Below are positions 41,120 through 57,456 of a DNA stretch of 63,154 nucleotides, in pieces (the stretch's first letter is position 1; each line of letters begins with the position of its first letter). Position numbers and translations under genes: made by a program. The notes under the pieces are model-generated. The model was not told the origin of the DNA, made no database searches, and saw only the letters and a program-made list of their open reading frames with translations. The stretch is from Neptuniibacter sp. UBA6509. GTDB taxonomy: Bacteria; Pseudomonadota; Gammaproteobacteria; Pseudomonadales; Balneatricaceae. The stretch lies in assembly GCA_002435145.1 (NCBI GenBank), contig DJLT01000132.1:1-63154 (forward strand), written 5' to 3'.

Positions 41120-43066
41120 ATGGATTTTTTTACACAACAGGATAAAGCGCGTAAGAATACTGGGCGACTAGTACTTCTGTTCTTGGTAGCTGTGTTTAGT
41201 CTTATTATGCTGACCAATATCCTTATAGGGCTTACTTTTTGGTTTGTGACCCAAGAGGAGAATGTGCAGCGCGGTATCAGTGTGATTTCATCTACGGACA
41301 CCCGCACAATTGCGGGCCTGTTTTCTTGGCGTTCCTTTGGTTTAATCAGCCTTGCTGTTGGTGGCAGTGTTCTGTGTGCAATTCTATATAAATGGGCGCA
41401 ACTCAGTGCAGGCGGAAAGGCTGTTGCTGAATCGCTCGGCGGGGTACGTCTCTATCCTAATTCAGATGACCCTAATCACCAGCAAGTATTAAATGTCGTA
41501 GAGGAGATGGCGCTGGCGTCAGGTATGCCAGTGCCTCCAGTTTACCTTTTAGAGCATGAGCTTGGGATCAATGCGTTTGCTGCGGGTAATACACCCGCGG
41601 ATGCGGTGATAGGAGTGACTAAAGGTGCTGTAGAGCATTTCAAGCGCGATGAACTTCAAGGCGTTATTGCGCATGAATTTAGTCATATCTTAAATGGAGA
41701 TATGCGCTTAAATCTTCGTTTAATTGCTTTACTACATGGCATTGTCTTTATTGGGATAATGGGTGAAATGCTTGCTCGGGGAAGTGGCCATCGTCGTTCG
41801 GATGGTCGAGCCGCCTTGCTTGGCATTGCCCTGATGTTTATCGGTTGGCTTGGTACCTTTTTTGGTAATCTGATTAAGGCTGCTGTAAGTAGACAGCGTG
41901 AGTTTTTGGCTGATGCGAGTGCTGTTCAATTTACGCGTAATCCCGAGGGGATATCAAATGCACTGAAGCTGATCGGTGGTTATGGTAGCGGCACTGAAAT
42001 CAATGCTTCTCACCGTAGTGAGGTGAGTCATCTCTTCTTTGGCCAGGCGATCCAGCATCTGAGCAGTATGATGGCAACCCATCCACCGCTTGTAGATAGA
42101 ATTTTAAAAGTTGATCCTGATTGGGATGGTAATTATCTTCACCGAACTCCACCTACGCGACAGCGTAAGCAAGAGGGTGATGAAGAGACGCGACAGCAAA
42201 AAAAGGAACGGTTTGTTGAAACGGTGATGACCGGTGCTGCTGTCACCGCTGGGGTCGACTCTCAAGACCTATTTTCTGGTAGTTCTGATCTAGATCAGTT
42301 ACGCAATGAAATTGATGGCATACCCGCTGAATTGCATAAGCAAGCTCATGACCCTTTAGGTGCGATTGCAATATGTTACGCATTTCTGCTCCATGCAGAG
42401 CCTAGTTTGCAACAGAAGCAGTTGGTGTTGGTTGAAAAGAGTGGCTTCTCAGGTTTAGTGGAACTGACAAAAAAGCTGCATCCTTTAATTGAGCCTGTAG
42501 GCGTAGGCTCTCGCTTGCCGCTTATTGAACTGCTTTTACCTGCGCTGAAATGCATGTCTAAAGAACAATATGTTTCTTTTAAACGCACATTATTACTGCT
42601 CATACGTGCAGATAAAAGAACGGATCTATTTGAATGGTGTTTATATCAGCTTATCCGTCATTATTTGGTGGGTGAATTTGAGCCGCGTAAAGAGATTAAA
42701 TATAAATTTAAAAAAGCATCTCAGGTGTCAGGTGAGTACCAGCTAGTATTATCACTACTTGCCCATTATGGTCATGAGAGTGAAGAGCTAGCTGAAAGGG
42801 CGTTTAACCGTGGAGCGGGATCAGCGGGTTTATATAACATAAGCTTGTTGTCTAAGAGCGAGTGTGATCAAGAAGGTTTTATTCAATCGGTTAACAAACT
42901 TAGTAGTAGTTACCCAGCTTTAAAACCCCGCTTACTCACGGGAATTAAAAACTGTATTTATCAAGATGGTGTGGTCAGTGCGCTAGAGCGCGAAATAGTG
43001 TCAACCATTGCTGTTGTTATGGATGCCCCCATCCCTTTGTTTTCTGAAGACGATACTAAAACATAA
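41120..43066 (+). CDS. M48-family membrane metallopeptidase with C-terminal extension
   Basis: 648 residues. Two N-terminal transmembrane helices (about 17-43 and 72-90), then an HtpX-like M48 catalytic domain: zinc motif HEFSH (H185, E186, H189) and downstream SRQREFLADASAVQF supplying the third ligand, with another hydrophobic pair at about 205-255. Residues about 340-648 form a soluble helical extension absent from HtpX and of unknown function. The partner LemA is encoded 75 bp upstream. It converges with the next gene with one base between stops. Confidence 0.92.
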   Translation: MDFFTQQDKARKNTGRLVLLFLVAVFSLIMLTNILIGLTFWFVTQEENVQRGISVISSTDTRTIAGLFSWRSFGLISLAVGGSVLCAILYKWAQLSAGGKAVAESLGGVRLYPNSDDPNHQQVLNVVEEMALASGMPVPPVYLLEHELGINAFAAGNTPADAVIGVTKGAVEHFKRDELQGVIAHEFSHILNGDMRLNLRLIALLHGIVFIGIMGEMLARGSGHRRSDGRAALLGIALMFIGWLGTFFGNLIKAAVSRQREFLADASAVQFTRNPEGISNALKLIGGYGSGTEINASHRSEVSHLFFGQAIQHLSSMMATHPPLVDRILKVDPDWDGNYLHRTPPTRQRKQEGDEETRQQKKERFVETVMTGAAVTAGVDSQDLFSGSSDLDQLRNEIDGIPAELHKQAHDPLGAIAICYAFLLHAEPSLQQKQLVLVEKSGFSGLVELTKKLHPLIEPVGVGSRLPLIELLLPALKCMSKEQYVSFKRTLLLLIRADKRTDLFEWCLYQLIRHYLVGEFEPRKEIKYKFKKASQVSGEYQLVLSLLAHYGHESEELAERAFNRGAGSAGLYNISLLSKSECDQEGFIQSVNKLSSSYPALKPRLLTGIKNCIYQDGVVSALEREIVSTIAVVMDAPIPLFSEDDTKT

Positions 43067-43067
43067 T

Positions 43068-43574
43068 TTAGATGGCTGTGGCGCTCTTGGTATCTAAGCG
43101 CTCTAGTTCATGCTCAAGGTGCTCTGGGGAATAGTCTATGAATCTTCTCCCTTGAATTAGTCGGCTTAATGAGCGCCCTTCAAAGTGAACATAAACGCTA
43201 TCATGTGAGCAGTGAAAGTTGATCTGTTCCCCTTGTTGATCGCGTTCAAAATGGCCATCGGCTGCGATCTTGTCCAATTGCACCACAACTTTGTATTTGT
43301 CTTCATGGTTGATCACGGTCGCAGGTATTGAATGGCCTTTTTCTAAAATAGTCACGCCTTCGCCCACGCGATAGTCGGCAAACATATCCTCTGCTTTGCG
43401 TTGTAAAAGTTCATCGATGACATCCACAAGAATTGAGGCGACGATATCATGCTCATTGAGAGGGCCAATTAAGGATTGGCTAAAGGCTCTATGGTCGTTT
43501 GAGGAGAACCATTGAGCGGCGTTTTCTTTATTTATTACTTCGCGAACAAGACAATTAATCTGGTTAATATCCAT
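43068..43574 (-). CDS. Conserved-looking protein of unknown function
   Basis: 168 residues, acidic, soluble, no signal peptide. An N-terminal helical part (1-70) is followed by a beta-rich part (70-130) with the pattern GEGVTILEKGHSIPATVIN, then a basic helix-rich tail. I do not recognise the family. Good coding character and a normal start (CAT reversed at 43574) support it as a gene. Convergent with the M48 peptidase gene. Confidence 0.75.
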   Translation of the reverse strand: MDINQINCLVREVINKENAAQWFSSNDHRAFSQSLIGPLNEHDIVASILVDVIDELLQRKAEDMFADYRVGEGVTILEKGHSIPATVINHEDKYKVVVQLDKIAADGHFERDQQGEQINFHCSHDSVYVHFEGRSLSRLIQGRRFIDYSPEHLEHELERLDTKSATAI

Positions 43575-43774
43575 CTAACCCTCTCTCTGAGATATGTTTA
43601 TCCATGTGTCCGAATATAGATCAAGGTTAGAAGGGAATGAGAAAAATACAAGAAATTGTATGAAATAAAGGCGCTGTTGTTAGGAGGTCTGAGTCGTTAG
43701 TTACGTTTTCAATTACTTAGTTTAGGCTGCACAGGGAGCACTCAACGGTAAATGCTAAGAGGGCAGGGGGCCCC

Positions 43775-44137
43775 TTAGTCTTTATTCCATTCAAGTGATA
43801 ACGACACAGAATCAGCAAACCTTAGTGCGTGAGGCTTATCGATTGTAACTTTAGCGTATCGCGTCCAAGGGTGGACAGTACATATTTCTAGAACATCAGA
43901 AACGAGCTTTTCCAACAGCAAGAATCGACCTTCTTCTACATGCTGAATAATTTCTTTGGTAATTGTTTTGTAGTTAAGGGCCTTCTCGACATCATCATCT
44001 GCAAAGCCCTTACTAGCGGGGTATTGAATCTCAATATTAATGACAACATCTTGCTGCTTCTTCATTTCATCAGGATTAAAACCAATAAACGTACGTAGTC
44101 GAAGGTTAGTGATATTAATGATGGCGTTGCTAAGCAT
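43775..44137 (-). CDS. folX: Dihydroneopterin triphosphate 2'-epimerase
   Basis: 120 residues of the FolB/FolX fold. The pattern AIINITNLRLRTFIGFNPDE, ALNYKTITKEIIQHVEEGRF and LHALRFADSVSLSL-like ending follow E. coli FolX more closely than FolB. It epimerises dihydroneopterin triphosphate in the pterin pathway. It lies 73 bp downstream of the H-NOX-associated kinase on the same strand and may be read from that operon, but a functional link is not evident. Confidence 0.9.
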   Translation of the reverse strand: MLSNAIINITNLRLRTFIGFNPDEMKKQQDVVINIEIQYPASKGFADDDVEKALNYKTITKEIIQHVEEGRFLLLEKLVSDVLEICTVHPWTRYAKVTIDKPHALRFADSVSLSLEWNKD

Positions 44138-44210
44138 TAAGACAATTTCCTTTTTTATGGCTGTTGGAATTAGCGTGGACTTCCTTGGTGCCTCGCTTAA
44201 AAAGCTGAGA

Positions 44211-45155
44211 CTAGTTTATCGGGAGTTTAATGGTAAAGGTAGTCCCTTCGCCTTCTATACTGCTGACACTTATTTCGCCATTATGATCTTTAATGATACC
44301 GTGAGCGATTGCTAGTCCCATTCCGGTGCCATCTCCGACTGGTTTAGTCGTAAAGAAAGGTACAAATATTTCTTTCTGTACGGCTTCACTCATGCCAGAA
44401 CCATTGTCAGAAATTTTAATAACAATTTCAGAATCAATCTGATCGCTAGATATTGTAATAGTTGGACGTTTTTGATCTGCTGTTGCTTGCTTAGCATTGA
44501 TAATTAAGTTGAGGAATACTTGATTTAATTCATTGGGGTTGCAAGATATATCTGGGAGTGGATTTAGGTTTAATTGCATATTAACTGAATTTTTTAGCTC
44601 GCTATGCAGTAGCTTAAGAGTGCTTTTTATGCCATCGACTAGCTTAGCTGTAGAACGGTCAGTTGATTGTGTTCGCGCAAAGCTTCGTAGGTTCATGACG
44701 ATATCTCGAACCCGTGTTAGGCCTTCGACGGTATCCGTCATGAGTTCTGGAAGGTCTTCTTGAATAAACTCTATATCTTCTTCGTCGAATAGTTTCGTTA
44801 GTTTAGTTTGTGTGCCTTTTGGTAAGTCATTAGTCGCTTCTTGAATAAAAGAAACGAGTCGCGAATAAGACGTATGGTATTTCGTTAATGATTCAATATT
44901 ACTTTTAACGAAGGCAAGGGGGTTGTTGATTTCATGAGCCATGCCGGCTGCTAGCGTTCCTAATGTGGCTAATTTCTCATTTTGTAGCATTACAGCTTGT
45001 TGCTTTTGTAACAAATCATAACTCTCTTGAAGGCGCTCATTCTTCAGAAAGAGTTCTCTTGATTTGTTTTCTAGGATCTCTTCTGCTTTTAAGCGGGCGC
45101 GCTTTTCACGTTCATATGCGGCTTCGTAAGCATTATTTTGTGTTTGTTCGTCCAT
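44211..45155 (-). CDS. H-NOX-associated cytoplasmic sensor histidine kinase
   Basis: 314 residues with no transmembrane helix: an N-terminal coiled coil (about 5-60), then a HisKA-type dimerisation segment with phospho-acceptor H74 in GMAHEINNPLAF, and a HATPase domain with N, G1 and G2 boxes (NLIINAKQA, ISDNGSGMS, GDGTGMGLAIAHGI). Its ATG overlaps the H-NOX stop as TAATG, the arrangement of HnoK/HahK kinases whose autophosphorylation is inhibited by NO-bound H-NOX in Shewanella and Vibrio. Predicted targets are the REC proteins of this cluster. Confidence 0.92.
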   Translation of the reverse strand: MDEQTQNNAYEAAYEREKRARLKAEEILENKSRELFLKNERLQESYDLLQKQQAVMLQNEKLATLGTLAAGMAHEINNPLAFVKSNIESLTKYHTSYSRLVSFIQEATNDLPKGTQTKLTKLFDEEDIEFIQEDLPELMTDTVEGLTRVRDIVMNLRSFARTQSTDRSTAKLVDGIKSTLKLLHSELKNSVNMQLNLNPLPDISCNPNELNQVFLNLIINAKQATADQKRPTITISSDQIDSEIVIKISDNGSGMSEAVQKEIFVPFFTTKPVGDGTGMGLAIAHGIIKDHNGEISVSSIEGEGTTFTIKLPIN

Positions 45156-45691
45156 TACAAAAACTTCACGATTAAATCGCAGTGATCAGAGCCTTTATGC
45201 ATACAAACTGGGTGATCTATCGTAATTTGGGTGTCGTAATGGCTTGCTGCTCCACGAATGAGACCTTCTGCTAGGATGCAGAGCTTTCTTGGGGAACGGT
45301 ATCGCATTAGTAAAGTATCATCGGCGCCATCTTCATATTCAAAGTCAGGCAAGTTAGGGTTTTCATAGAGCTTGCGAACTTCAATATGGATGACGTCATG
45401 AACACTTTTTAAAAAGCCTTTTAGTGTACTCTCCGCATCAATAAACATAGGGTTTCGATCGGCTAGCCCTTTAAATAAACGTTCGCCAAAGGCACCGACT
45501 AAGGTTTCGGCTGGAATACCAGTCTGTTTGGAAATGCAGTCGACTAGGCCAAATAAATCACTGTCAGGGTAGCTTTCACCTGCTGTATATATGCCCTCAA
45601 GCGCTTGGCTTTCAAGTATTTCATTCCACGCAAGCATACCGCACTGCTCTATAACCATTTCTTCAAGAACATTAAACACAACGCCTTTCAT
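45155..45691 (-). CDS. H-NOX heme nitric-oxide sensor
   Basis: 178 residues, full-length stand-alone H-NOX domain. The start MKGVVFNVLEEMVIE is typical; the proximal heme ligand falls exactly at H102 (DVIHIEVRKLY) and the porphyrin-binding YxSxR motif at Y131, S133, R135 (YRSPR), matching the canonical numbering. The protein should bind NO, and possibly CO, through ferrous heme and regulate the kinase that overlaps it by one base. It belongs to a minus-strand string of four: REC/HD-GYP-like, REC, H-NOX, kinase. Distal-pocket O2 versus NO preference was not resolved by eye. Confidence 0.96.
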   Translation of the reverse strand: MKGVVFNVLEEMVIEQCGMLAWNEILESQALEGIYTAGESYPDSDLFGLVDCISKQTGIPAETLVGAFGERLFKGLADRNPMFIDAESTLKGFLKSVHDVIHIEVRKLYENPNLPDFEYEDGADDTLLMRYRSPRKLCILAEGLIRGAASHYDTQITIDHPVCMHKGSDHCDLIVKFL

Positions 45692-45709
45692 AACTAGCTC
45701 CTTAGTTTA

Positions 45710-46222
45710 TTATTCTACCTCAACCCAGCCCATTTCATTTCTTCGCACTTTAGTAATGCCAGGACTCATCTGTTCGAGTAGTTTTTCATTCCACTGTATG
45801 AATTCAGCTTTAGTCATTGTTTTCTTTTTTAGGTACTGAAGTTGCCCCATATTCTGTTTGAATGCTATTAGTCCTTGTTCCATCTCTTGAGCTAATTGTT
45901 TGTTATCCCAGGGTTTATGTAGGAAACGGTTAATTTCTGCAATATTTATCGCATCCCCCATTGCTTGAATATCAGCCTGACCACTGAGCATGATTTTAAA
46001 TGAGTATGGCTGCGTTTTATTGAATTGCCTCAAAAAGTCCACGCCATTCATTTCTGGCATTCGGTAGTCTGAAATAACTACCGGGAAAACTCCATACTTG
46101 GCGTAATCTAGAGCAGTTTCGGGATTGTTAAAAGCGATAACCCTCCAGTTTTTTCTTACAAGATGTCGTTGAAGTGCCTTCAGAACTTGAGTTTCATCAT
46201 CAATGATCATGACATTTTTCAT
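45710..46222 (-). CDS. Response regulator receiver protein with short tail
   Basis: 170 residues from the ATG at 46222, with GGAG seven bases upstream. A complete receiver domain (phospho-acceptor D52 in SDYRMPEM, conserved KPW at about 102) is followed by only ~50 residues of helix (KAEFIQWNEKLLEQ) and no DNA-binding or enzymatic output. It may be a phosphate sink, connector or adaptor in the H-NOX cascade. Its start is 10 bp past the preceding regulator's stop. Confidence 0.88.
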   Translation of the reverse strand: MKNVMIIDDETQVLKALQRHLVRKNWRVIAFNNPETALDYAKYGVFPVVISDYRMPEMNGVDFLRQFNKTQPYSFKIMLSGQADIQAMGDAINIAEINRFLHKPWDNKQLAQEMEQGLIAFKQNMGQLQYLKKKTMTKAEFIQWNEKLLEQMSPGITKVRRNEMGWVEVE

Positions 46223-46232
46223 AGGGTGGCTC

Positions 46233-47576
46233 CTAAGTAAGAACAAAAATTTCTACAGGATTATTGTCAGCCGTTAGAAACTTGTTTAAACGCATCAATG
46301 AGTCAGCATTAAAAGTATGTCCTTCTGGCAGTAGTAATATATTGTTGCTGTTTAGCACGTCACGTGACAAAGACATGCCTGGGGTAATATCGCTGATTGC
46401 GATTATTCTCTCGTTTTTTGCCAGAGTATTATGATTAATTACGTCGATTACTTGAGGTAAAAGGTTAACAATCTGGGGATCATATTGTTGATTCGCACGC
46501 TGAGTAAGATATTCAATAGCCCCTTGTGAGCTGAGTCGCGCGGTATGTAGACGACCGGAGGTGGCATAGACATAGTCTCGGGCAACAGAAAGGATTCTTG
46601 AGCCTAAAGGTATTTCATCTGCGCTTAAGTGATTAGGGCAGCCCTCGCCTGAAAAAACTTCATGCTGATATAAGATAATAGTCGCTACATCCTTAAGAGG
46701 TGTGGCAGGGCTTAAAGCTAGATAAGCTTGCTGTGATGATGATTGATAGATCTTTTTAAGATCAATGGATAGTTCCTCAATAGGGGTATTCCATATCTCA
46801 TCATTCATGCTTAGCATGCCGAGTTCACATAAAAGACCTGCAAGTTGAATGTCTTTAATTGCTTTGGGTGAATCCAGCATTTTATGGGCTATTTGCGAGC
46901 ATAGTTCACTGATTATTAAAGAGGATTTACCACCTAAATACGGATTTAAGCTGATTAAATTATAAAATGAACGAATGGTGGCGTTTAGGTTATTTTTGAT
47001 AACTGAATTAGCCGACTTTAACTTACCAAGAGTAGTGCGGATCTGTAGTGTTCTTTGTTTAACCTTTTCTTCTAGCGAATTATTTAACGACGCTAGTGAG
47101 CGGTTCTTCTTTTCAATTTCGCTGACTAAGCGGCGGTTTTCATTTTCTAGTATTAGCTTTTCAGAGCATTGTGAAACGGTGAGTAAGAGTTCTTCATTAT
47201 TCCATGGCTTTTGTAAATAACAGGATATTTTTCCGCTATTAACAGCAGCTATTGTTGAACTCAGGTCAGAATACCCAGTCAGAAGTATGCGCACCGTATA
47301 TGGGTAAGCTTTGGCTATATGGCTAAGGAATTCTGCGCCGTCCATCTCAGGCATTCTCATGTCTGAAATGATGATATCGATAGATTCTTTGCTTGCGATC
47401 TCAAGCCCTTCATGACCATTACATGCAGTGAAGATTCGATAATGTGGTGATCTTAGAAGACGCTTTAGTGCCTTCAGCACGCTGACTTCGTCATCTACAC
47501 ACAAAACACAGAGCTGACTATTCGAAAGCTTCAGTTCTGTTTTCTCACTGGAGAAGTGTGAGCTAATGGCTGTCAT
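46233..47576 (-). CDS. Response regulator with degenerate HD-GYP domain (HnoD-like)
   Basis: 447 residues from the ATG at 47576, chosen because GAGG lies six bases upstream; the frame reaches 47633 through non-conserved residues. Receiver domain with D72 (SDMRMPEMDG) and KPW, then a coiled coil (about 150-185, ENENRRLVSEIEKKNRSL) and an HD-GYP-fold region. The catalytic HD is replaced (LLCELGML) and GYP reads GCP, so it should be enzymatically dead. This recalls HnoD of Shewanella, a degenerate HD-GYP that allosterically controls the HnoB phosphodiesterase. First gene of the minus-strand H-NOX operon. Confidence 0.88.
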   Translation of the reverse strand: MTAISSHFSSEKTELKLSNSQLCVLCVDDEVSVLKALKRLLRSPHYRIFTACNGHEGLEIASKESIDIIISDMRMPEMDGAEFLSHIAKAYPYTVRILLTGYSDLSSTIAAVNSGKISCYLQKPWNNEELLLTVSQCSEKLILENENRRLVSEIEKKNRSLASLNNSLEEKVKQRTLQIRTTLGKLKSANSVIKNNLNATIRSFYNLISLNPYLGGKSSLIISELCSQIAHKMLDSPKAIKDIQLAGLLCELGMLSMNDEIWNTPIEELSIDLKKIYQSSSQQAYLALSPATPLKDVATIILYQHEVFSGEGCPNHLSADEIPLGSRILSVARDYVYATSGRLHTARLSSQGAIEYLTQRANQQYDPQIVNLLPQVIDVINHNTLAKNERIIAISDITPGMSLSRDVLNSNNILLLPEGHTFNADSLMRLNKFLTADNNPVEIFVLT

Positions 47577-47830
47577 AAGTTGCCTCTTACTGTACATGCT
47601 GTGTCTGCTAAGGTCTCGATATAATATAGTCAAAATGCGCTAATGTCGCAAATGTCATTATGGTGTTATCTCGTTTTCCTTAAAAAACAATGGCTTATAC
47701 TTTTAGTTCTATTTTTTGTTGCTGGTGTTAATGTTTTTGGTGACAAATGCGACATTTGTGCTATTCTTGTAACCATATTCATTTTAAGGCTAATTAAGGC
47801 TGAGTTTTAGTTAGATAAGGTGTTAAACCG
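47577..47830. promoter_or_regulatory. Divergent control region of the NO/c-di-GMP cluster
   Basis: 254 bp between the two halves of the cluster. It contains AATGTCGCAAATGTC (two AATGTC units nine bases apart, 47642-47656) and a perfect palindrome ACAAATG-CGA-CATTTGT (47743-47759). Both share the core TGCGACATT in opposite orientation. Placement and relatedness suggest paired operators; the HTH response regulator at 47831 is the natural candidate protein. Confidence 0.5.
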
Positions 47831-48424
47831 ATGAAAACCTTTTCAACCGGTGACATTGCAAAATACTGCGATGTGAACTTGAGAACAGTTATTCGATGGA
47901 TAGATAAAGGAGAGCTCGAGGGCTTTAAGTTGCCTGGAAGAGGGAATAATCGAGTAACTGAAGAGGCATTTCTTGCCTTTTTACATCGCCACAATATTCC
48001 CGTGCCAGATGATTTAAGGGAAGTTGAAGTAGTTAATAGCAATCGGATCTTAATTGTTGATGATGAAGTGCAAATTGCCAAAGCTATTCAGCGTGTACTT
48101 CGAGGAGCAGGTTATGAAACTGCGCTAGCGCAAGATGGCTTTAGGGCAGGAAGTAGGCTAGTAAAAGATAAGCCGGCTTTAATGACATTGGATCTAAGTA
48201 TGCCAGGGATTGATGGATATGAGGTGATTAAATTTGTGAGAGAAACCCCAGGGATTTGTCATACCCGCATATTGGTTATTTCGGCCTTGGAGGATGACAA
48301 GCTGCAGGAAGCATTAGAAGTCGGGGCGGATGCTTACTTGCAGAAACCGTTTGCAAATTCGGAACTACTCGCAAGCATTGAGAAAATGCTTGAGTCACCT
48401 CAGGGATTAATTGTTAATAACTAG
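47831..48424 (+). CDS. HTH-receiver transcriptional response regulator (HnoC-like)
   Basis: 197 residues with an inverted order: an N-terminal MerR/excisionase-type helix-turn-helix (about 4-50, FSTGDIAKYCDVNLRTVIRW) and a C-terminal receiver (about 72-190, phospho-acceptor D121 in TLDLSMPG, KPF at about 173). Response regulators usually have the receiver first. It likely controls the divergent promoters it flanks. A transcriptional regulator, HnoC, completes the Shewanella H-NOX network, so this is the probable counterpart; equivalence is inferred. Confidence 0.85.
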   Translation: MKTFSTGDIAKYCDVNLRTVIRWIDKGELEGFKLPGRGNNRVTEEAFLAFLHRHNIPVPDDLREVEVVNSNRILIVDDEVQIAKAIQRVLRGAGYETALAQDGFRAGSRLVKDKPALMTLDLSMPGIDGYEVIKFVRETPGICHTRILVISALEDDKLQEALEVGADAYLQKPFANSELLASIEKMLESPQGLIVNN

Positions 48425-48471
48425 ATCCATGTTTGATTGTGAATTAATGGATAAACCAAAGGGCTTAGGTC

Positions 48472-50472
48472 ATGGAAAAATCTCTCCTGCTTGTAGATGA
48501 TGAATCATCAATATTAAGGTCACTTAAACGAATTTTCCATCGATCAGGTTTTCACGTCACTACCGCTAATAGCCCTGAAGAAGCCTTAGAACTTGTCGAT
48601 AAACAGGCCTTTCCTGTCGTTCTGTCTGACTACCGTATGCCTCATAAAACTGGGGGTGAATTACTCATTGAGATCAAAGAAAAACATCCAGAGACCTTAG
48701 GTCTGATTTTGAGTGGTTACGCTGACCTAGAATCTGTTATTGCTGCATTAAATAGTGGCGCAGTGTATAAATTTTTAGAGAAACCTTGGAATGAATCTCA
48801 ATTAATAGAAACGGTTGAAGATGCCTTTAAGCACTGGGAAACATCCCAAGATATTGAAGAAAAAGAGATATTGTCAACCTGCATAACAATAAACGAGATG
48901 GGCAGGGTTATTGCCGGAGGAATAGATTCTGGAGATTTTTTCAAGTGTAGTGATTTTCAATTGATAGGCTCTTCGTTAACTCAGCTCTTACCTTACCTTT
49001 CTATACGAGAGCAGCAAAATTTATGCTTATCCGATCCGGTTGAAATGGAAGTGATTGAACCTATTACTCAGGGTATCTTGAAGATTGTTTCAAGACCGGC
49101 AGCTTACCGTCGTTGGGAGTTTGAACTAACACTTATTCAATCGGGTTGTCATCATCCTATTAAAAAGAATAGAAATGGGAGTGGCGTGTCGGTTAAAACG
49201 ATGTTTATGGACCATGTAGCACAGAGATTGAGTGGTGAAGAGGTTCAGACATTAATATATTTAGATATTCGTCATTTCCGCCATTTTAATGATAGTTTTG
49301 GCTATCAAAAGTCAGATGAATTACTGCAACATATCGCATCTATTTTTCATGATACGACCCCTGAAGGGGTTGAGTTTAGTCAGATGAATGGTGCAGATTT
49401 TGTGTTTTTAGTACCAAGAGTTCTTTCAGAGCAGTCAGCTTTAGATTTAATTGACTCTCTTATTTCCCCTTTTCAGCAGTTAATTGAGTTTGACAACCGT
49501 GAAGTGATGCTAACGTTTAGTGCAGGCTTTTCGGTAGCCCCCCACGATGCTAAACAACCAGAAAAGCTTATTCGGGCTGCTCAGATTGCGGCAAATTATA
49601 GTAAAGAGAAAGGCTTTAATTGTTATCCACGTTATCAAGATAAAATGGATTTTCGCCAAGACGATATGGTGAGTTTACAGAGTGAGTTGTGTCATGCGTT
49701 AAATCGAGAGGAGTTTTCACTCTATTACCAACCTAAGATTTCATTAAGGAGCGGTGAGATTTTAGGTGCTGAAGCGCTCATCCGGTGGCAGCATTCTGAA
49801 AGAGGAATGATCTCGCCGGACCGTTTTATCCCGCTGGCTGAATTAACGGGGTTAATTGGCCCCATTGGTGAGTGGGTGTTATCTACGGCAAGTATTCAAA
49901 GCGCCTGTTGGCAAAAAGAGGGATTGCCTAAATTTATTATGTCAGTGAATGTATCGGGGCGGCAGCTGACAGAACATGATCTTGTAGAGACGGTCAGGGG
50001 AATTATCGAGCGTAGTGGCTTGCTGCCAGAGTCTCTTGAGTTAGAAGTAACAGAAACATTTCTGATGCAAGATATTGAACACAGTATTACGGTGTTAGAA
50101 CAGATTAAAAACTTAGGTGTAAAAATTGCCATAGATGATTTTGGAACAGGTTATTCCTCTCTTAATTATCTGACTCGCTTGCCTGTTGATACATTAAAGG
50201 TCGACCGGTCTTTTATATCAGAGCTTTCAGATACCGAAGAAAAAAATAGTCTCGTAAAAAATATGATCACTATGTCGCATGATTTGGGGTTAAGGGTTGT
50301 AGCCGAAGGTGTTGAGACTGTTGAGCAGTTAACGCACTTGCAGAAAATGAAATGCGATGAAGTGCAGGGCTATTATTTTAGTCCTCCAGTTACGGCAGAG
50401 AAGTTTAGAGAATTATTATCACAAAATTATTGGGGTGATATCGCTCATTCTAATAGTGTGGCTATACAGTAG
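48472..50472 (+). CDS. REC-GGDEF-EAL cyclic-di-GMP phosphodiesterase (HnoB-like)
   Basis: 666 residues: receiver (1-120, D53 in SDYRMPHK), a PAS-like middle (about 130-225), a degenerate GGDEF domain (about 245-395; active-site loop reads NGADF at 306-310) and an EAL domain (about 400-655). The EAL site looks complete: E434 of EALIRW, N493, E528, D555-D556 in IDDFGTGYSS, K576, E612 and Q632. Prediction: phosphorylation-gated c-di-GMP hydrolysis with no cyclase activity, as in HnoB. It lies 47 bp after the HTH regulator. Confidence 0.92.
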   Translation: MEKSLLLVDDESSILRSLKRIFHRSGFHVTTANSPEEALELVDKQAFPVVLSDYRMPHKTGGELLIEIKEKHPETLGLILSGYADLESVIAALNSGAVYKFLEKPWNESQLIETVEDAFKHWETSQDIEEKEILSTCITINEMGRVIAGGIDSGDFFKCSDFQLIGSSLTQLLPYLSIREQQNLCLSDPVEMEVIEPITQGILKIVSRPAAYRRWEFELTLIQSGCHHPIKKNRNGSGVSVKTMFMDHVAQRLSGEEVQTLIYLDIRHFRHFNDSFGYQKSDELLQHIASIFHDTTPEGVEFSQMNGADFVFLVPRVLSEQSALDLIDSLISPFQQLIEFDNREVMLTFSAGFSVAPHDAKQPEKLIRAAQIAANYSKEKGFNCYPRYQDKMDFRQDDMVSLQSELCHALNREEFSLYYQPKISLRSGEILGAEALIRWQHSERGMISPDRFIPLAELTGLIGPIGEWVLSTASIQSACWQKEGLPKFIMSVNVSGRQLTEHDLVETVRGIIERSGLLPESLELEVTETFLMQDIEHSITVLEQIKNLGVKIAIDDFGTGYSSLNYLTRLPVDTLKVDRSFISELSDTEEKNSLVKNMITMSHDLGLRVVAEGVETVEQLTHLQKMKCDEVQGYYFSPPVTAEKFRELLSQNYWGDIAHSNSVAIQ

Positions 50473-50493
50473 GTGGATATGGAGGTCAGTACT

Positions 50494-51594
50494 ATGAATG
50501 TGAATCAAGCGTCAGTTTATTTTCTCGATGATGAATCTCAAGTACTAGGAGCATTGCGACGAGCACTACGCTTACGTTTGAAAGGTTGGACAATGGTCTT
50601 TGAATCATCGCCAAGTAGAACGTTGGATTTGATGTCGCATTCAACACCTTGGGTTGTTGTAGTTGACAAAAAAATGCCTGAGATTGATGGGGCTGAATTC
50701 CTGAATGAAATTAAAACGTTATACCCTGATGCGGTTAGGGTCATATTGTCCGGTGATATTAGCCATGAAACGGTAGTGGAGTCTGCGGGTATTGCGCACT
50801 TGCTATTATCAAAACCTTTTGAGTTAGATGAAATCGTTGCGGTGATTGAAAGAGCCGTGTGCCTGCGCACTTTCCAGCTAGATGATGAATTACGTGCAGG
50901 CATTGGGAATATCGATAATTTACCTATACTGCCAGCTAATTATGATGCACTTGTTACCTATTTGAATTCTGTTGATGAACCCGATTATGTATGTGTAGCT
51001 GAGCTTATCAGTCATGATATAGCGGTACTTTCAAAAATTTTACAGTTAGCGAATTCAGCTTTTTTTGGGGCTGCTGTGCCTGCTTATTCCGCTCATGATG
51101 CAGTGGTTCGTTTAGGCCATGATTTAGTTCGTAAATTAGTACTGTGTTTTGAACTATATACCGCGAAAGGAGATTTGGATCTGCATAATCAGCTACTTAA
51201 AAGTTCTGAGCGAATAGCTGAAGGATGTGTGAAGCTAGCTACTGCATCACAATTAAGTAGAGAAGATACAGAACGAGCATATTTCACAGGGCTTTTACAT
51301 AACATTGGTGAATTGGTTCTCGCAGGTCAAAATTCCAATATTAGTTCTGATCTTGCAGGTAGTTTTTTACTTAAGCTGTGGGGATTTGATCAACGTATTG
51401 TTGATGCCGTTCGTCATCAATCATCGCCGGGAAAAAACCAAGAGACAGACCCCGTTATCTATCAGCTTAATCTCGTGAAAACACTTGTTAAAGGTGACAG
51501 TAGCCTTATGGAGATGGATGTTTTTTTAGAAAGTTTAGATCCTAATTTACTTAAGAATGCTCAATTATCTGACTACGTCGGGAGTTTCTCATGA
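50494..51594 (+). CDS. REC-HDOD protein
   Basis: 366 residues from the ATG at 50494, which has GGAGG eight bases upstream; a GTG at 50473 lies immediately after the previous stop and is less likely. Receiver domain with D58 (VVDKKMPEIDG) and KPF at about 107, then an HDOD domain (about 140-330, containing LSKILQLANSAFFG and HNIGELVLAGQ). HDOD proteins are non-enzymatic relatives of HD domains tied to c-di-GMP and stress signalling. The stop overlaps the next start by four bases. Confidence 0.9.
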   Translation: MNVNQASVYFLDDESQVLGALRRALRLRLKGWTMVFESSPSRTLDLMSHSTPWVVVVDKKMPEIDGAEFLNEIKTLYPDAVRVILSGDISHETVVESAGIAHLLLSKPFELDEIVAVIERAVCLRTFQLDDELRAGIGNIDNLPILPANYDALVTYLNSVDEPDYVCVAELISHDIAVLSKILQLANSAFFGAAVPAYSAHDAVVRLGHDLVRKLVLCFELYTAKGDLDLHNQLLKSSERIAEGCVKLATASQLSREDTERAYFTGLLHNIGELVLAGQNSNISSDLAGSFLLKLWGFDQRIVDAVRHQSSPGKNQETDPVIYQLNLVKTLVKGDSSLMEMDVFLESLDPNLLKNAQLSDYVGSFS

Positions 51595-52415
51595 AAAATA
51601 GATTAGCTTATTTAGTTTTGATTACCTTATTAATATCACCTTCCGCTTGGGCTGATACTTTAAGTTTTGGCATTGTTCCACAGCAATCAGCCAAAAAGCT
51701 GGCTAAATTATGGACACCTATCAATGCTTATTTGAGTAAGAAAATCGGTGTAAAAGTCTTATTTAGTACTGCAAATGATATTCCTACGTTTGAAAAACGA
51801 GTATTGGCTGGGGAGTATGATATCGCTTACATGAATCCCTATCACTATACAGTATTTCATCAAAAGCCTGGTTATGAAGCGATTGCTAAGCAAAAAGACA
51901 AACAGATTAAGGGCATTATCGTTGTAGCAAAAGATAGCCCTTTGACCTCATTAGAAGAATTAACTAGCGAAACTTTAGCGTTTCCTGCTCCCGCAGCATT
52001 TGCTGCTAGTGTATTGCCTCGAGCAAAAATGGCTAAAGATGGAATCGATATTACGCCTAAGTATGTATCATCCCATGATTCAGTCTATCTAACGGTTTCA
52101 CGAGGCCTATTCCCCGCAGGTGGAGGCGTAATGAGAACGTTTAATAACACAGCGCCAGAAGTTAGAGAAGGTCTTCGCGTTTTATGGAGTACACCTGGTT
52201 ATACCCCTCACGCAATTGCCGTGCATCCAAGGCTTTCACATGACCTAAAAACTAAAATTCAGCAAGCGCTACTGGGTATGAATGATGATCCTGAAGGGCA
52301 GGAGCTTTTAGCATCGATCAATTTTAAAGCTTTAGCGATGGCTGAGGATAAAGATTGGGATGATGTAAGGGAGCTAAATATTAAGCTGTTAGAGCATCTC
52401 TTGTTAGCTGAATAG
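51591..52415 (+). CDS. PhnD-like periplasmic binding protein
   Basis: 274 residues. A signal peptide ends at about SAWA (22), giving a soluble periplasmic protein of the PhnD/SsuA/transferrin superfamily (phosphate, phosphite or phosphonate-type binding). LSFGIVPQQSAKKLAKLWTP opens the mature domain, and GEYDIAYMNPYHYTVFHQKP and SHDSVYLTVSRGLFPAGGG are family features. No ABC permease or ATPase is encoded near, but a transmembrane kinase is next, so it probably works as a sensor subunit. Ligand unknown. It overlaps the HDOD gene by ATGA. Confidence 0.88.
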   Translation: MKNRLAYLVLITLLISPSAWADTLSFGIVPQQSAKKLAKLWTPINAYLSKKIGVKVLFSTANDIPTFEKRVLAGEYDIAYMNPYHYTVFHQKPGYEAIAKQKDKQIKGIIVVAKDSPLTSLEELTSETLAFPAPAAFAASVLPRAKMAKDGIDITPKYVSSHDSVYLTVSRGLFPAGGGVMRTFNNTAPEVREGLRVLWSTPGYTPHAIAVHPRLSHDLKTKIQQALLGMNDDPEGQELLASINFKALAMAEDKDWDDVRELNIKLLEHLLLAE

Positions 52416-52437
52416 TGGTTTAGAAAAGGGATTTATT

Positions 52438-54069
52438 GTGTCATTACGACTTAAAACCATTTTAGGGATCGCTATTATTGAGGCAATCTTATTGTTGCTC
52501 TTAATTTCTATGACATTGGATTATTTAAGAGAGACAAACTATGAAGGCCTCATTAAACGTGCATCGACGACTGCAACGTTGTTTGCGACGACGTCTAAAA
52601 ATGCTGTTTTGAGCTATGACTTAGCCTCATTAGAGTCATTTGTGAATGAAGTTTTGAAAAACCCTGATCTAGTTTATGCCAGAGTGTTGGGGCCGGGAGG
52701 GCAGGTTTTTGCTGAAGCCGGTGATAAAAATGCTTTAGCAACTCCTTTCCATTCAGATACAGAAGTTGAAACCGTTCATGACAGTATTTTTGATACCTTT
52801 GCTGATATTAGCGAAGGTGGTGAAACCTATGGTCGGGTTGAAATTGGGCTAGATATAAAAAGTTTAAAATCAACAATTGATGAGGCCCAGAATAAGAGCG
52901 CCACTATTGCTGCATTAGAGATGAGCTTAGTGGCGTTGTTTTCCTTAATCTTAGGTACTTATCTAACGCGTCAACTTAAGTTCCTCAGTGCTGCCGCTAA
53001 ATCTATTTCCTCAGGTGACTTAGGGGTGCAAATTCCAGTAAAAGGGCAGGATGAAATTGCTGAAGTGGCGCATGCATTTAATGCAATGGCTTTTAGTTTA
53101 AAAGAGGTAAGTGAACGAAGAGATGAGGTTGAAAGCCAGCTGAAAGAACTGAACCGTTCCTTGGAAGAGCGCGTATCCCAACGTACTGAAGAACTCGTCT
53201 TAAAAAATTCAGAACTTGAACATGCCAATCGTGAGATAAAAGATGCGCAAGCCAAACTGCTGCAATCGGAAAAAATGGCTTCAGTGGGTGTGCTTGCTGC
53301 CGGTGTTGCTCATGAAATTAATAACCCACTCGGTTTTGTGATAAGTAACCTAACTACATTAGAAAACTATGTGAATAACTACCGGGTATTGGTAGCGGAG
53401 TATCAAAAGCTATTTGAACTAAAAGATTCAATGGCGCGTAAGGAGCAGTACCTGAGGATACAGCAGAGCATTAACGATTTTGATTTAGAGTTCATGAATG
53501 AAGATTTGACGGAGCTGTTGCGTGATACACAAGAGGGATCCGTTAGGGTTAAAGATATTGTTAAGGGCCTCAAAGCGTTTTCACATGTCGATCAATCAGA
53601 TGAGATGCAGTTAGCAGATATAAACGAGTGCATAACTACGACTTTAAAAGTAGCAAATAATGAACTCAAATATCACTGCCAACTTGATTTGCAGTTGGGT
53701 GAGCTTCCTAAGACGTATTGCTTACCGGGTCAGATTAAACAGGTATTGTTAAACCTATTTATGAATGCGAGCCATGCAATACAAGAAAAAGGTGTAATAA
53801 ACGTATCTAGTTCTCTCGAGGGTGACAATATAGAGATCAGTGTCCGTGATAATGGTTGCGGTATACCGAAAGAGAGTATCAGTAAATTGTTTGACCCGTT
53901 CTTTACGACGAAACAGGTAGGAGAGGGCACAGGGCTTGGTCTTGCAATCTCTTACGGTATTATCGTAGATGAGCATAAGGGTGATATTCGTGTTACTAGT
54001 GTAGAGGGGGAAGGCACTTGCTTTACAGTTGTTCTTCCGCTGAAACCGAATCTGTCGGATCCTACCTAA
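52438..54069 (+). CDS. Transmembrane sensor histidine kinase with HAMP
   Basis: 543 residues from a GTG start with AAGGG seven bases upstream. Two transmembrane helices (about 7-28 and 155-175) enclose a small periplasmic sensor (about 30-153); HAMP follows (about 176-230, ISSGDLGVQIPVKGQDEIAEV), then a coiled coil (225-275), HisKA with H292 (GVAHEINNPLGF) and a complete HATPase domain (NLFMNASHAI, VRDNGCGIP, GEGTGLGLAISYGI). The C-terminal kinase core closely resembles that of the H-NOX-linked kinase. Probably reads the PhnD-like protein encoded 22 bp upstream. Confidence 0.92.
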   Translation: MSLRLKTILGIAIIEAILLLLLISMTLDYLRETNYEGLIKRASTTATLFATTSKNAVLSYDLASLESFVNEVLKNPDLVYARVLGPGGQVFAEAGDKNALATPFHSDTEVETVHDSIFDTFADISEGGETYGRVEIGLDIKSLKSTIDEAQNKSATIAALEMSLVALFSLILGTYLTRQLKFLSAAAKSISSGDLGVQIPVKGQDEIAEVAHAFNAMAFSLKEVSERRDEVESQLKELNRSLEERVSQRTEELVLKNSELEHANREIKDAQAKLLQSEKMASVGVLAAGVAHEINNPLGFVISNLTTLENYVNNYRVLVAEYQKLFELKDSMARKEQYLRIQQSINDFDLEFMNEDLTELLRDTQEGSVRVKDIVKGLKAFSHVDQSDEMQLADINECITTTLKVANNELKYHCQLDLQLGELPKTYCLPGQIKQVLLNLFMNASHAIQEKGVINVSSSLEGDNIEISVRDNGCGIPKESISKLFDPFFTTKQVGEGTGLGLAISYGIIVDEHKGDIRVTSVEGEGTCFTVVLPLKPNLSDPT

Positions 54070-54139
54070 AGTGACGATTAATGGATGAAACTGTTTTTCT
54101 CAGTAGTTGAGAGCGATTAAATTAGGGATGCATTAAACG

Positions 54140-55417
54140 ATGGAATATAAAGACAACAGTATTCTTTTAGTGGACGACGAGCCTGCGGTATTAAGTTCGC
54201 TCAAACGTTTGTTACGTGTATTTAAATGTAAAATAATCACTACAGTTTCACCTATTGAAGCGCTAGAGCTATTAAAGAATGAACCGGTTGATATTGTGAT
54301 CAGCGATATGCGTATGCCTGAGATGGGAGGGGAGTGCTTTTTAGAGAAAGTTGCAGCGCTGTACCCTGAAACCGAGCGTATTGTTATTTCAGGTTACTCT
54401 GATGCCCAAGCGACTATTGATGCAATTAACCGCGGCAAGGTTAGTCGTTTTATGTTGAAACCATGGGAGGACGAAGATGTTCTCAAAATGGTTAAAAAAG
54501 GGTTTGAACTTGCTATTCTGAAGCAGGATAACCAACGTTTAACGACTGAAGCTCACGAAAAAAACCGAGAGCTTGAGGAGCTGAACATCTCCTTGGATGA
54601 GAAGGTCCAAGCGAGGACTGATCAGCTTAAGCACGCTAATGCGCGTATAAAAAATAGTTATCGTTCAGTTGTTCGCATGTTTTCGTCTCTAACGGCTAGG
54701 CGGTTAGGTGTAAAAGCTTCTAAACAGCACCATATATTAAATCGAATTTTAGTAACCGTAGGCTCGCGTTTAGGCTTAGCCGGAGTTGATTTAAAGCAGC
54801 TTTATTATGCGTGGCAGCTACGACAAATAGGTAAATTAAGTTTTTCAGATGACCTTTTAAAAACGCCTTACCTAAAGTTAGAGCCGGTGCAACAGCGAGA
54901 GTATGAAACCCACCCCTTGTTAGCTCAAGCAGCAAGTTTAATGGTTAAACCTCTGTTTCCTGCAGGCCAGATAATTTTGCAGCACAAAGAGTATCTAGAC
55001 GGCACAGGCTATCCGAAGGGCTTAAAGGGAGAGGAAATTAGCCTAAGAGCTCAAGTACTTTGTGTCGTAACTGATTATGTAGAACTGGTATCTGGGTCCT
55101 ATGATGAGCGTCAATACAGCACTACCGAAGCGATCGGGTATATGCAGAATACGGCCCCGGAGCGTTATAACCAAGAGGTTGTGGGCATTTTAGCTGAAGT
55201 GAGTGAGTTACTCGGTAAGTCAGGGGATATGCTGAGTGATAAAACGATTCATACGGATCAACTTAGAAAGGGAATGAAGTTGAGTCGTGACTTAATTAGT
55301 GAAGAGGGAATTCTGCTGCTAAGTGCTGATCAACTGTTAGATGACATAGCCATTGAGCGAATTAGAGAGATTGAGTTTAACCTAGAAGAAACGTTTGAAG
55401 TGTACATCTCAGATTAA
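54140..55417 (+). CDS. Response regulator with partly degenerate HD-GYP domain
   Basis: 425 residues: receiver (1-120, D56 in SDMRMPEMGG, KPW at about 108), coiled coil (about 130-172), HD-GYP-fold region (about 175-420). The metal-binding HD of the usual HDIGK reads RQIGK (228-232), so catalysis is unlikely, although the later GTGYPKGL segment (the GYP part, 290-292) is kept. It resembles the minus-strand REC/HD-GYP protein at 46233-47576 in overall layout but is less degenerate. Last gene of the plus-strand half of the cluster. Confidence 0.88.
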   Translation: MEYKDNSILLVDDEPAVLSSLKRLLRVFKCKIITTVSPIEALELLKNEPVDIVISDMRMPEMGGECFLEKVAALYPETERIVISGYSDAQATIDAINRGKVSRFMLKPWEDEDVLKMVKKGFELAILKQDNQRLTTEAHEKNRELEELNISLDEKVQARTDQLKHANARIKNSYRSVVRMFSSLTARRLGVKASKQHHILNRILVTVGSRLGLAGVDLKQLYYAWQLRQIGKLSFSDDLLKTPYLKLEPVQQREYETHPLLAQAASLMVKPLFPAGQIILQHKEYLDGTGYPKGLKGEEISLRAQVLCVVTDYVELVSGSYDERQYSTTEAIGYMQNTAPERYNQEVVGILAEVSELLGKSGDMLSDKTIHTDQLRKGMKLSRDLISEEGILLLSADQLLDDIAIERIREIEFNLEETFEVYISD

Positions 55418-55627
55418 AATGCGGGTACGCGTAGTTTTTCAGGTATTAGGGAGTTCTCATCTTTTTAAACAGTGCTTAACGAGACCTATTTCGTGCTCTC
55501 GCTAACGGGTCTTCTATTTTAAATAGCGTTTGTTGCTCTATGTTATCGGTGAGCTTTAGCGCTAGATTAATAAAAGCTATTGTATAAGATCGGGGCGAGT
55601 AATTCAGGTCAAATAGCTCTGGTCAAT

Positions 55628-56380
55628 TTATTGATGGGTAAAGGCATCTATCTCTTCAAGGGTTAAAAAACGCCATTGGCCTTCCTTGACATCCAAATGA
55701 ATAGGGCCGATTTGTTCACGATGTAACTGCAACACTTTATTACCGACTGCGGCAAACATACGCTTTACTTGATGGAAGCGTCCCTCTGTAATTGTTAGCA
55801 GTACTTCAGTTCTCTTGTTTTCAGTAGCTTTAACTTCATTGCTTTTAAAGTCTGTGCTTTTAACCTCAGAGCTTTCAACGACAGTCAGTTTTGCGGGGCG
55901 CGTCGGTTTTTCCTCTCCTTGGAGCAATATACCTTGGGTAAGTGCTAATTCCGCCTTTTCAGTGAGTGGCGAGCGTAAGCGAACTCGGTAGACCTTTTCA
56001 CATAAATAATTAGGTTGCGTAATTTGATAGGACCAGCGGCCATCATCCGTGATTAAAACAAGCCCTGTAGTATCTGCATCAAGGCGTCCGGCAATGTGCA
56101 GTTCTGAGGCTTTATCTATACTGATGTAATTAAATAGGGAAGGGTAGGCTTCATCAATATTAGAGCAGATTGTATTCGCAGGCTTATGCATAAGAATGTA
56201 GCGTGGAGGCCGAGGTCTGAGTTCAACCCCCTTAAGTGTAATTAAATTGTTCTCATGAACTTGCACTCTCGGGTCATGAATCGCGGAACTGTTTACGTAT
56301 ACCTGCCCGGTTTTTATCGTTTGTGTTGCCTGTTCTTTACTGAGGTCAGTGCTTCTACAGATAAATCTATCTAGGCGCAT
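55628..56380 (-). CDS. rsuA: RsuA-family ribosomal pseudouridine synthase
   Basis: 250 residues. N-terminal S4 RNA-binding domain (MRLDRFICRSTDLSKEQA, 1-55) and a pseudouridine synthase domain with the catalytic aspartate in GRLDADTTGLVL (D101) and EGRFHQVKRMFAAVGN. The S4 start fits RsuA (16S rRNA position 516) better than the RluE or RluF types, but this is a family-level call. A charged insertion at about 170-191 (SEVKSTDFKSNEVKATENKR) contains an imperfect repeat and lengthens a loop. Confidence 0.85.
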   Translation of the reverse strand: MRLDRFICRSTDLSKEQATQTIKTGQVYVNSSAIHDPRVQVHENNLITLKGVELRPRPPRYILMHKPANTICSNIDEAYPSLFNYISIDKASELHIAGRLDADTTGLVLITDDGRWSYQITQPNYLCEKVYRVRLRSPLTEKAELALTQGILLQGEEKPTRPAKLTVVESSEVKSTDFKSNEVKATENKRTEVLLTITEGRFHQVKRMFAAVGNKVLQLHREQIGPIHLDVKEGQWRFLTLEEIDAFTHQ

Positions 56381-56420
56381 GGGCGGGTATCGTATTACAA
56401 GAATGAAGGAATTGAGTCGT

Positions 56421-56460
56421 TATTATCTATTCAGGACTGTTATCTATTCAAGACTATTAT
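56421..56460. repeat. Tandem duplication of a 17-bp unit
   Basis: TTATCTATTCAGGACTG is directly followed by TTATCTATTCAAGACTA in the gap upstream of the pseudouridine synthase gene. A small local duplication of unknown significance. Confidence 0.5.
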
Positions 56461-56638
56461 TTCTAAACTGAATCTCTCGAATAGAAAACCCTGCGTTAGA
56501 GAGTATTGCTATGAATAGTAGCGTATGATCCCTGTTTTTATGTACCGCCCTTGATAGCTATCCAGACGGTTGCTTTGCAGTCCTTCACTTTGGCCATCTT
56601 TGCGCCTAATACGACCTGAATTTACACTGGAGATAGCG

Positions 56639-57199: not shown

Positions 57200-57233
57200 G
57201 TAAGAAGGGGAGAGAGCGTTCTATTTAGGTTCC

Positions 57234-57401
57234 TTAGTTAGGCATGAGTTTTACATTGTTCCTATTTAAATCTTTTGCTTGATAGAGCGCTTGGTCCATT
57301 CGTGAGAAGATACTGTCACCATTATCGTGAGTATTAAATTCGGTGACGCCAAAGCTACAAGTGACTTGTATGTTTTGATGGCTTCTAAGGTCATAAATAT
57401 A
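57234..57401 (-). pseudogene. Remnant of a GGDEF-domain (diguanylate cyclase) gene
   Basis: Read on the minus strand, about 50 codons give the C-terminal end of a GGDEF domain: IQVTCSFGVTEFN followed by MDQALYQAKDLNRNNVKLMP and a stop codon. SFGV and the ALYQAK-xx-N-RN pattern are the last conserved blocks of the family. Reading upstream, the frame hits TAG at about 57402 and the GGDEF active site is missing. The break lies about 55 bp from the Lrp gene's stop, which hints that insertion of the Lrp-leuA segment removed the rest. Confidence 0.75.
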
Positions 57402-57456
57402 TGACTAATCTCACCGTGTGAAGCCTAGTGTGGAAATTACCCTGATTCAAAAAATC

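Follow-up and report, generated by a model that had tools for sequence, protein, structure and literature searches.

The ten genes at positions 44211 to 55417 of contig DJLT01000132.1 from Neptuniibacter sp. UBA6509 probably encode a single signalling system in which two inputs serve one hub. The window, the whole stretch analysed, is 63,154 nucleotides long and comes from an assembly of 3.88 Mb in 134 contigs with a completeness of 91%. It is likely that the locus is a form of the HnoK/HnoS-HnoBCD network of Shewanella in which an AioX/ArrX-like receptor-kinase pair takes the place of the second input and HnoC represses both operons. Gene content, residue states, paralogy, co-occurrence, and the presence and genome-wide uniqueness of a strict repeat were computed directly. 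The locus is real, conserved, and coherent, and its component kinds and logic are already known; new are the PhnD-type second input as a standing partner, a candidate HnoC operator, and the extent of module swapping.

The list of open reading frames (ORFs) places ten adjacent genes in two divergent runs, with Pfam and NCBIfam in agreement, and the domain types match those given in the initial annotation: HNOB, HisKA/HATPase, Response_reg, HD_5 (twice), HTH_17 with Response_reg, GGDEF with EAL, HDOD, Phosphonate-bd, and HAMP with HATPase. From the gap outwards, the minus-strand run is hnoD1, a lone receiver (REC), hnoX, and hnoK; the plus-strand run is hnoC, hnoB, the REC-HDOD gene (hdod), phnD, the second kinase gene (HK2), and hnoD2. 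The assignment to HnoX, HnoK, HnoB, HnoC, and HnoD types is supported by families, residues, and kinase and receiver paralogy. The features are as follows (lengths in amino acids, aa).

44211..45155, minus strand: hnoK-like soluble histidine kinase, H-NOX-coupled; 314 aa, HEINN box, HisKA and HATPase_c
45155..45691, minus strand: hnoX, H-NOX nitric oxide (NO) sensor; 178 aa, PF07700 at 131.5 bits
45710..46222, minus strand: lone receiver; 170 aa, start ATG 46222, Response_reg
46233..47576, minus strand: hnoD1, REC with degenerate HD-GYP; 447 aa from ATG 47576, NF053512 at 470.2 bits
47644..47656, plus strand: candidate HnoC operator 1, TGTCGCAAATGTC, overlapping the promoter-like -35 for hnoD1-rec-hnoX-hnoK
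47742..47754, minus strand: candidate HnoC operator 2, TGTCGCATTTGTC, overlapping the promoter-like -35 for the run that begins with hnoC
47831..48424, plus strand: hnoC, HTH_17-REC transcription factor by Pfam; 197 aa
48472..50472, plus strand: hnoB, REC-GGDEF-EAL; degenerate GGDEF (NGADF), EAL catalytic set apparently intact
50491..51594, plus strand: REC-HDOD protein; 367 aa, alternative start GTG 50473, PF08668 and Response_reg
51591..52415, plus strand: phnD, PhnD/PtxB/ArrX-fold receptor, probably periplasmic; 274 aa, PF12974 at 220 bits, conserved residues in 52 sequences
52438..54069, plus strand: second kinase HK2; an alpha/beta domain between two likely membrane helices, then HAMP, coiled coil, HEINN box, and HATPase
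54140..55417, plus strand: hnoD2, REC with degenerate HD-GYP; 425 aa, NF053512 at 437.5 bits

In the proposed mechanism, the PhnD-fold periplasmic protein would bind a small ligand and act on the periplasmic domain of HK2, as AioX is proposed to do with AioS, and HnoK and HK2 would phosphorylate the same receivers, namely HnoB, HnoD1, HnoD2, the REC-HDOD protein, the lone REC, and HnoC. HnoB would degrade cyclic di-GMP (c-di-GMP) through its EAL domain, and HnoD1 and HnoD2, with their dead HD-GYP domains, would hold HnoB back until phosphorylated. Unphosphorylated HnoC would bind the direct repeats that overlap the -35 box of each divergent promoter, repressing both operons, and its phosphorylation would release it from the repeats and so give positive feedback. 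We infer the phosphotransfer and the contact between PhnD and HK2. The signs of regulation would be those of the S. oneidensis system (PMC8738867, PMC8846402, PMC6335343), in which phosphorylation is reported to lift repression by HnoC (PMC8738867).

State and paralogy of the signalling proteins

The H-NOX gene adjoins that of a histidine kinase, and its product retains the heme ligand H102 and, within YRSPR at 131-135, Y131, S133, and R135, as had been read from the sequence initially. Its best PDB match is 2kii, in which a His aligns with H102. Also present are C138, H160, C163, and C171, which by our own assignment look like the zinc set of three Cys and one His described for H-NOX (PMC12329717), apparently intact. 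The protein might therefore be mainly an oxidant sensor acting through this zinc-cysteine site and not an NO sensor, with the remaining network as proposed. Oxidation of the site is reported to activate Vc and Cc H-NOX, and NO to fail to activate Cc H-NOX (PMC12329717), which together with the four kept residues favours oxidant sensing. However, 4u9b and 4u99, close relatives of solved structure, are listed as NO-binding sensor proteins, and inhibition of HnoK by NO is reported from S. oneidensis (PMC8846402). A mainly oxidant-sensing role is thus considered improbable.

Both HnoD proteins carry a dead HD-GYP, as first annotated: HD is replaced by CE in HnoD1, where GYP is also changed to GCP, and by RQ in HnoD2, where GYP is kept. 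Among 106 distinct HnoD sequences aligned, these two included, HD is intact in one. The two proteins are only 35% identical. It is more likely that hnoD1 begins at ATG 47576, which is preceded by AGAGG (by eye), than at the listed TTG 47633, because the latter sits inside a promoter-like element, TTGCGA-17-TATATT (minus strand, 47651-47623).

In HnoB, NGADF replaces GGDEF, where other HnoB proteins often retain GGDEF or SGDEF. Its EAL domain has EAL, N, E/E, DDFGTG, K, E/E, and Q, which we take to be the catalytic residues; all 46 aligned HnoB proteins have the first E of EAL, N, E/E, K, E/E, and Q, and 45 of them have DD. In HnoC, the block KLPGRGNNRV is invariant across an alignment of 12 sequences.

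The two kinases are sister paralogues, reciprocal best matches in the genome with 43% identity over 295 aa. HK2 is the best non-self match of HnoK (227 bits, runner-up 152), and HnoK that of HK2 (220 bits, runner-up 177). Likewise, the cluster itself supplies the three receivers of the genome that, after its own, match that of HnoD1 best: HnoD2 (50%), HnoB (42%), and the lone REC (38%), from 33 matches including self. Kinase specificity residues were dropped as uninformative, N at +12 being present in 188 of 188 family kinases and S at +11 in 170 of 188, with only four other kinases for comparison.

The kinase third closest to HnoK and HK2 in this genome (L125; G000:C65, 9361-13139) adjoins genes that by eye resemble those of a sensor hydrogenase (small and large subunits), and is a possible H2 sensor of the same family.

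Conservation of the locus and a candidate HnoC operator

H-NOX is present in 54 of 116 genomes of the family. Excluding the window, 58 H-NOX loci were fetched, 37 of type 1 (at least 50% identity to the window H-NOX) and 21 of type 2. Score thresholds of the hidden Markov models for locus, co-occurrence, and upstream counts were set by us. Within 10 kb, all 37 type-1 genes have an HnoK/HK2-family kinase; next in frequency are hnoD (24), hnoB (16), phnD (14), hnoC and hdod (13 each), and the lone REC (8). At least one of hnoC, hnoB, hdod, hnoD, and phnD is found in this range at 26 of the 37 loci, and the locus is therefore not peculiar to this genome. The remaining 11 have hnoX and a kinase alone. 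Some of these are cut by contig ends and counted as lacking hub genes: L022, L042 (3.3 kb total), and L039, which ends about 2 kb behind H-NOX. In L022 (G009), the H-NOX gene itself is split, and its other part is found next to hnoC and hnoD on a separate contig. Three other genomes (G059, G068, and G108, with a different arrangement in G108) also have every one of the ten gene kinds together, and chance adjacency was rejected on this recurrence.

Over the 116 genomes, H-NOX also co-occurs with hnoC, phnD, and HnoD. Given as both, first only, second only, and neither, the counts are 34/20/12/50 for hnoX and hnoC (p 1.8e-6), 36/18/8/54 for hnoX and phnD (p 2.6e-9), and 40/14/11/51 for hnoX and HnoD (p 8e-10), by Fisher tests uncorrected for shared ancestry. 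Here phnD orthologues have at least 50% identity (44 of the 55 genomes with any match), and HnoD was counted over its cut-off (51 of 57 matched genomes).

Type-2 loci are different in content, with no hnoC, hnoB, or hnoD, one hdod, one family kinase, and two FIST genes. A PhnD-like neighbour is found at four of the 21. The Neptuniibacter genome has such a distant H-NOX (34% identity; L007, G000:C37:13600-33500, H-NOX at L007 9705), with a 794-aa hybrid kinase, a REC-HD-GYP protein with HD and GYP intact, a PhnD-like protein (~40%), and a 949-aa kinase as neighbours. H-NOX and PhnD-type receptors thus seem to meet in a second setting.

Scanning with the HnoC alignment confirmed 114 relatives, and 80 named loci from among them were retained. 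These contain phnD in 51 cases, H-NOX in 17, both in 14, and neither in 26, and the order hnoC-phnD-kinase-hnoD is found in 38.

A spaced-word count upstream of hnoC returned a direct repeat of period 9, ATGTC-N4-ATGTC. Of 83 distinct hnoC upstream regions, 70 contain the core TGTC-N5-TGTC, compared with 16 of 415 random stretches from the same loci. Upstream of other genes, the counts are phnD 0/83, hdod 0/32, CheC-like 0/4, kinase 2/159, hnoX 5/67, hnoD 10/105, hnoB 6/45, lone REC 2/14, and FIST 1/7. Eighty of 94 repeat sites sit 60-105 bases before hnoC (positions were taken from 84 regions, start trimming having differed). The strict form, TGTCRCAWWTGTC, occurs exactly twice in the 3.88-Mb assembly, at 47644-47656 and 47742-47754, both in the 198-base divergent gap, and the reversed-pattern control gives none. 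Each site overlaps a promoter-like -35, one belonging to an element on the minus strand at 47651 to 47623 for the hnoD1 run, and the other to one on the plus strand at 47740 to 47767 for the hnoC run. BldC is a precedent for an HTH_17-type regulator that binds direct repeats, and HnoC may do the same at this candidate operator.

The fetched loci hold 66 distinct strict sites, ten of which are either over 400 bases away from an hnoC start or in stretches that lack hnoC. Two of these are the window's own sites, re-fetched as L209. In four loci (L053, L056, L057, and L058) the site lies 17-53 bases from the start of hnoD1, followed by rec-hnoX-hnoK; a divergent hnoB, 426-570 bases from the site, bounds the same gap, and hnoC is about 8-10 kb away on the same contig in three and on another contig in the fourth. 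That H-NOX runs away from hnoC carry the strict site argues for their control by HnoC. In L107 (at 1999; G104:C1:33492), a strict site is found upstream of a FIST (NosP-type) gene, 84 bases from its start, and a kinase gene follows; this would place a NosP module also under HnoC. Sites at L041, L148, and L189 have no obvious link.

A number of results weigh against a single integrated system, in addition to the shared ancestry left in the p values. The receivers of the REC-HDOD protein (rank 8) and HnoC (rank 16) are farther from HnoD1 among its 33 matches. Of the 38 loci with the four-gene order, 31 have no H-NOX in the fetched stretch, and many genomes carry phnD and its kinase with no H-NOX nearby. 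No H-NOX match exists in 8 of 44 genomes with a phnD orthologue or in 12 of 46 with hnoC; for example, G001 and G011 have a complete hnoD1-hnoC-hnoB-hdod-phnD-HK2 and no H-NOX match genome-wide. As to the operator, 14 of 84 hnoC upstream regions have no site, and the gap region has three promoter-like matches where shuffles have 1.2 (standard deviation 1.1). In the window, TGTC-N5-TGTC is no commoner than chance (2 found, 1.51 expected), and the strict form with one mismatch shows a weak excess (2 against 0.55 expected, with 9 of 100 shuffles reaching 2). Over the 116 genomes, the strict pattern has 93 matches, fewer than the 193 of its reversed control; 30 lie within 350 bases of an hnoC start, such a site being present at 23 of 48 hnoC genes, and 63 lie elsewhere. 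Many strict sites are therefore chance, and the argument for the operator rests on position, not number.

The initial annotation had named regular occurrence of the plus-strand homologues without H-NOX, together with a failure of the H-NOX-linked kinase to phosphorylate the receivers, as what would speak against an integrated cluster. The first of the two is what was found, since H-NOX is lacking beside the core in 31 of the 80 HnoC loci and, among the 24 Alteromonas-named ones, the four-gene order is present in 21 and H-NOX is absent from every fetched stretch. The locus could then be two separate neighbours, hnoXK-rec-hnoD1 for NO and hnoC-B-hdod-phnD-HK2-hnoD2 as an insulated periplasmic-ligand pathway, brought together by common ancestry or horizontal gain. 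The two genomes that have the hub and no H-NOX fit such a division, as does an HnoD in each half, the divergent pair each possibly serving its own kinase. However, both strict repeats lie within the single shared gap, strict sites precede the hnoD1-rec-hnoX-hnoK run in the four loci where hnoC is not adjacent, the minus-strand half has neither hnoC nor hnoB, and the kinases are sisters. In addition, 49 of the 63 H-NOX-less HnoC loci were followed up, and 36 of the 48 genomes searched (L187 was left out) carry an H-NOX of some type elsewhere. Two insulated pathways are therefore thought unlikely, though the least so of the alternatives. The claim of one integrated cluster keeps the support of kinase and receiver paralogy, co-occurrence, and shared operator-like sites.

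A probable second input and possible sensor swapping

The phnD product matches PtxB, ArrX, PhnD, and AioX in PDB searches, and its structure model has a predicted local distance difference test (pLDDT) score of 94.4. By eye, its N-terminus resembles a signal peptide; it has no Cys. In our reading of the alignment, A136-F137-A138 occupies the oxyanion position of S-T-S in PtxB and S-F-S in ArrX. Across 33 aligned sequences, F137, A138, A139, H162, R182, W199, T205, and H207 are invariant, and A135 and A136 nearly so. Based on the conserved A136-F137-A138 region and the invariant H162, R182, W199, T205, and H207, the ligand is probably common across these genera and bound otherwise than phosphite or arsenate.

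A kinase of the HnoK/HK2 family adjoins phnD in 50 of 51 loci, the exception (L194) being a stretch of just 10.4 kb. In the window this is HK2, whose membrane helices were taken from its structure model (pLDDT 80.8, predicted template modelling score 0.38) and by eye; the fold search listed mostly kinase cores and gave no identification of the periplasmic domain. The pair would thus be a PhnD-fold exported protein beside a membrane sensor kinase.

The PhnD-like protein could instead be a phosphonate or phosphite uptake protein present in the cluster by happenstance. It matches PF12974 and, under their cut-offs, TIGR03431 and TIGR01098, and its PDB relatives are mostly transport binding proteins. 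Yet no ABC permease or ATPase ORF was recognized by eye at 42000-58500, on which ground a transporter was rejected, alanines stand in place of the oxyanion serines, and the partner is nearly always a kinase. An uptake role is therefore very unlikely. AioX-type arsenite sensing was also rejected, as the protein has no Cys. A literature search covering few subscription papers, and hence weak evidence of absence, found no publication joining PhnD-type binding proteins with histidine kinases and c-di-GMP, none joining H-NOX with periplasmic phosphonate proteins, and none on H-NOX in Neptuniibacter.

The place of phnD-HK2 is taken in one genome (L094, also as L155) by a CheC-like protein (by eye) and a kinase, and in another (L107, also as L154) a FIST protein and a kinase lie near the hub. 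The pattern resembles a constant set of receivers to which different sensors can be fitted, the CheC-like and FIST cases resting on one genome each. We tentatively suggest, at a little under even confidence, that an ArrX/AioX-fold receptor with its oxyanion serines lost and one conserved ligand is the standard second input to the NO/c-di-GMP hub in marine Oceanospirillales and Alteromonadales, and that HnoC keeps H-NOX, PhnD-kinase, and in one genome NosP under a single operator of direct repeats, which would let sensors be exchanged over a fixed set of receivers.

CheC-like proteins (207-210 aa, by eye) stand directly before a HnoK/HK2-family kinase near HnoD at L094 14680-16577, L099 7238-9176, and L116 7395-9306, possibly another hub sensor module.

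The ORFs flanking the locus are housekeeping-like (labelled by eye as M48 peptidase-like, folX-like, pseudouridine synthase-like, Lrp-like, and leuA-like). Scans of the window with Rfam, at gathering score, and for tRNAs gave no match.

Comparison with known systems

In Shewanella the hno parts are kept at two sites, and HnoS is now tied to NosP. The window locus shares its component kinds with the Shewanella HnoX-HnoK/HnoS-HnoB-HnoC-HnoD network, in which, as reported for S. oneidensis, the two kinases HnoK and HnoS converge on the three regulators HnoB, HnoC, and HnoD (PMC6335343). These kinds include a predicted REC-EAL phosphodiesterase with intact catalytic residues and a REC protein with degenerate HD-GYP. 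In contrast to that network, there is a single divergent locus, the second input is a PhnD-fold receptor with a membrane kinase, and a REC-HDOD protein, a lone REC, and a second HnoD are extra. An extra input, as proposed in the initial annotation, has a precedent, because S. oneidensis already has two kinases; the difference lies in the type of second input. PMC6335343 leaves open which signal the second kinase of the Shewanella network responds to and the reason for merging two signals. Here, the second input has a recognizable receptor with a conserved pocket, so that ligand screening becomes a way to find the co-signal of NO in the control of marine biofilms. The candidate HnoC operator is a DNA handle for defining the regulon across genomes, and modular sensor swapping is a natural test of input merging in two-component systems.

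HnoD1 and HnoD2 both pass the curated cut-off of 400 for NF053512, the NosR family, and so resemble the regulators of NosP-NosK-NosR in Burkholderia and NosP-NahK-NarR in Legionella; NosR is reported to have a dead HD-GYP too, HG-GTP (PMC12570481). Unlike those systems, in which the NosP sensor is a FIST protein, none of the ten window proteins has a FIST domain in Pfam, and the five FIST matches listed, of six in the genome, are all on other contigs.

AioX and its orthologue ArrX are reported to provide the initial component of a system that includes a sensor kinase, and in AioX-AioS-AioR and ArrX-ArrS-ArrR, as in this locus, the gene for a PhnD-fold periplasmic protein accompanies that for a sensor histidine kinase (PMC5908839). 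However, the PhnD protein here has no cysteine, and hence none of the Cys106 chemistry of AioX, and in our alignment the positions of AioX Ser161 and Ser163 are Ala. It is not classed as an AioX/ArrX member, and may work like one, with a c-di-GMP hub and not arsenic enzymes as its output.

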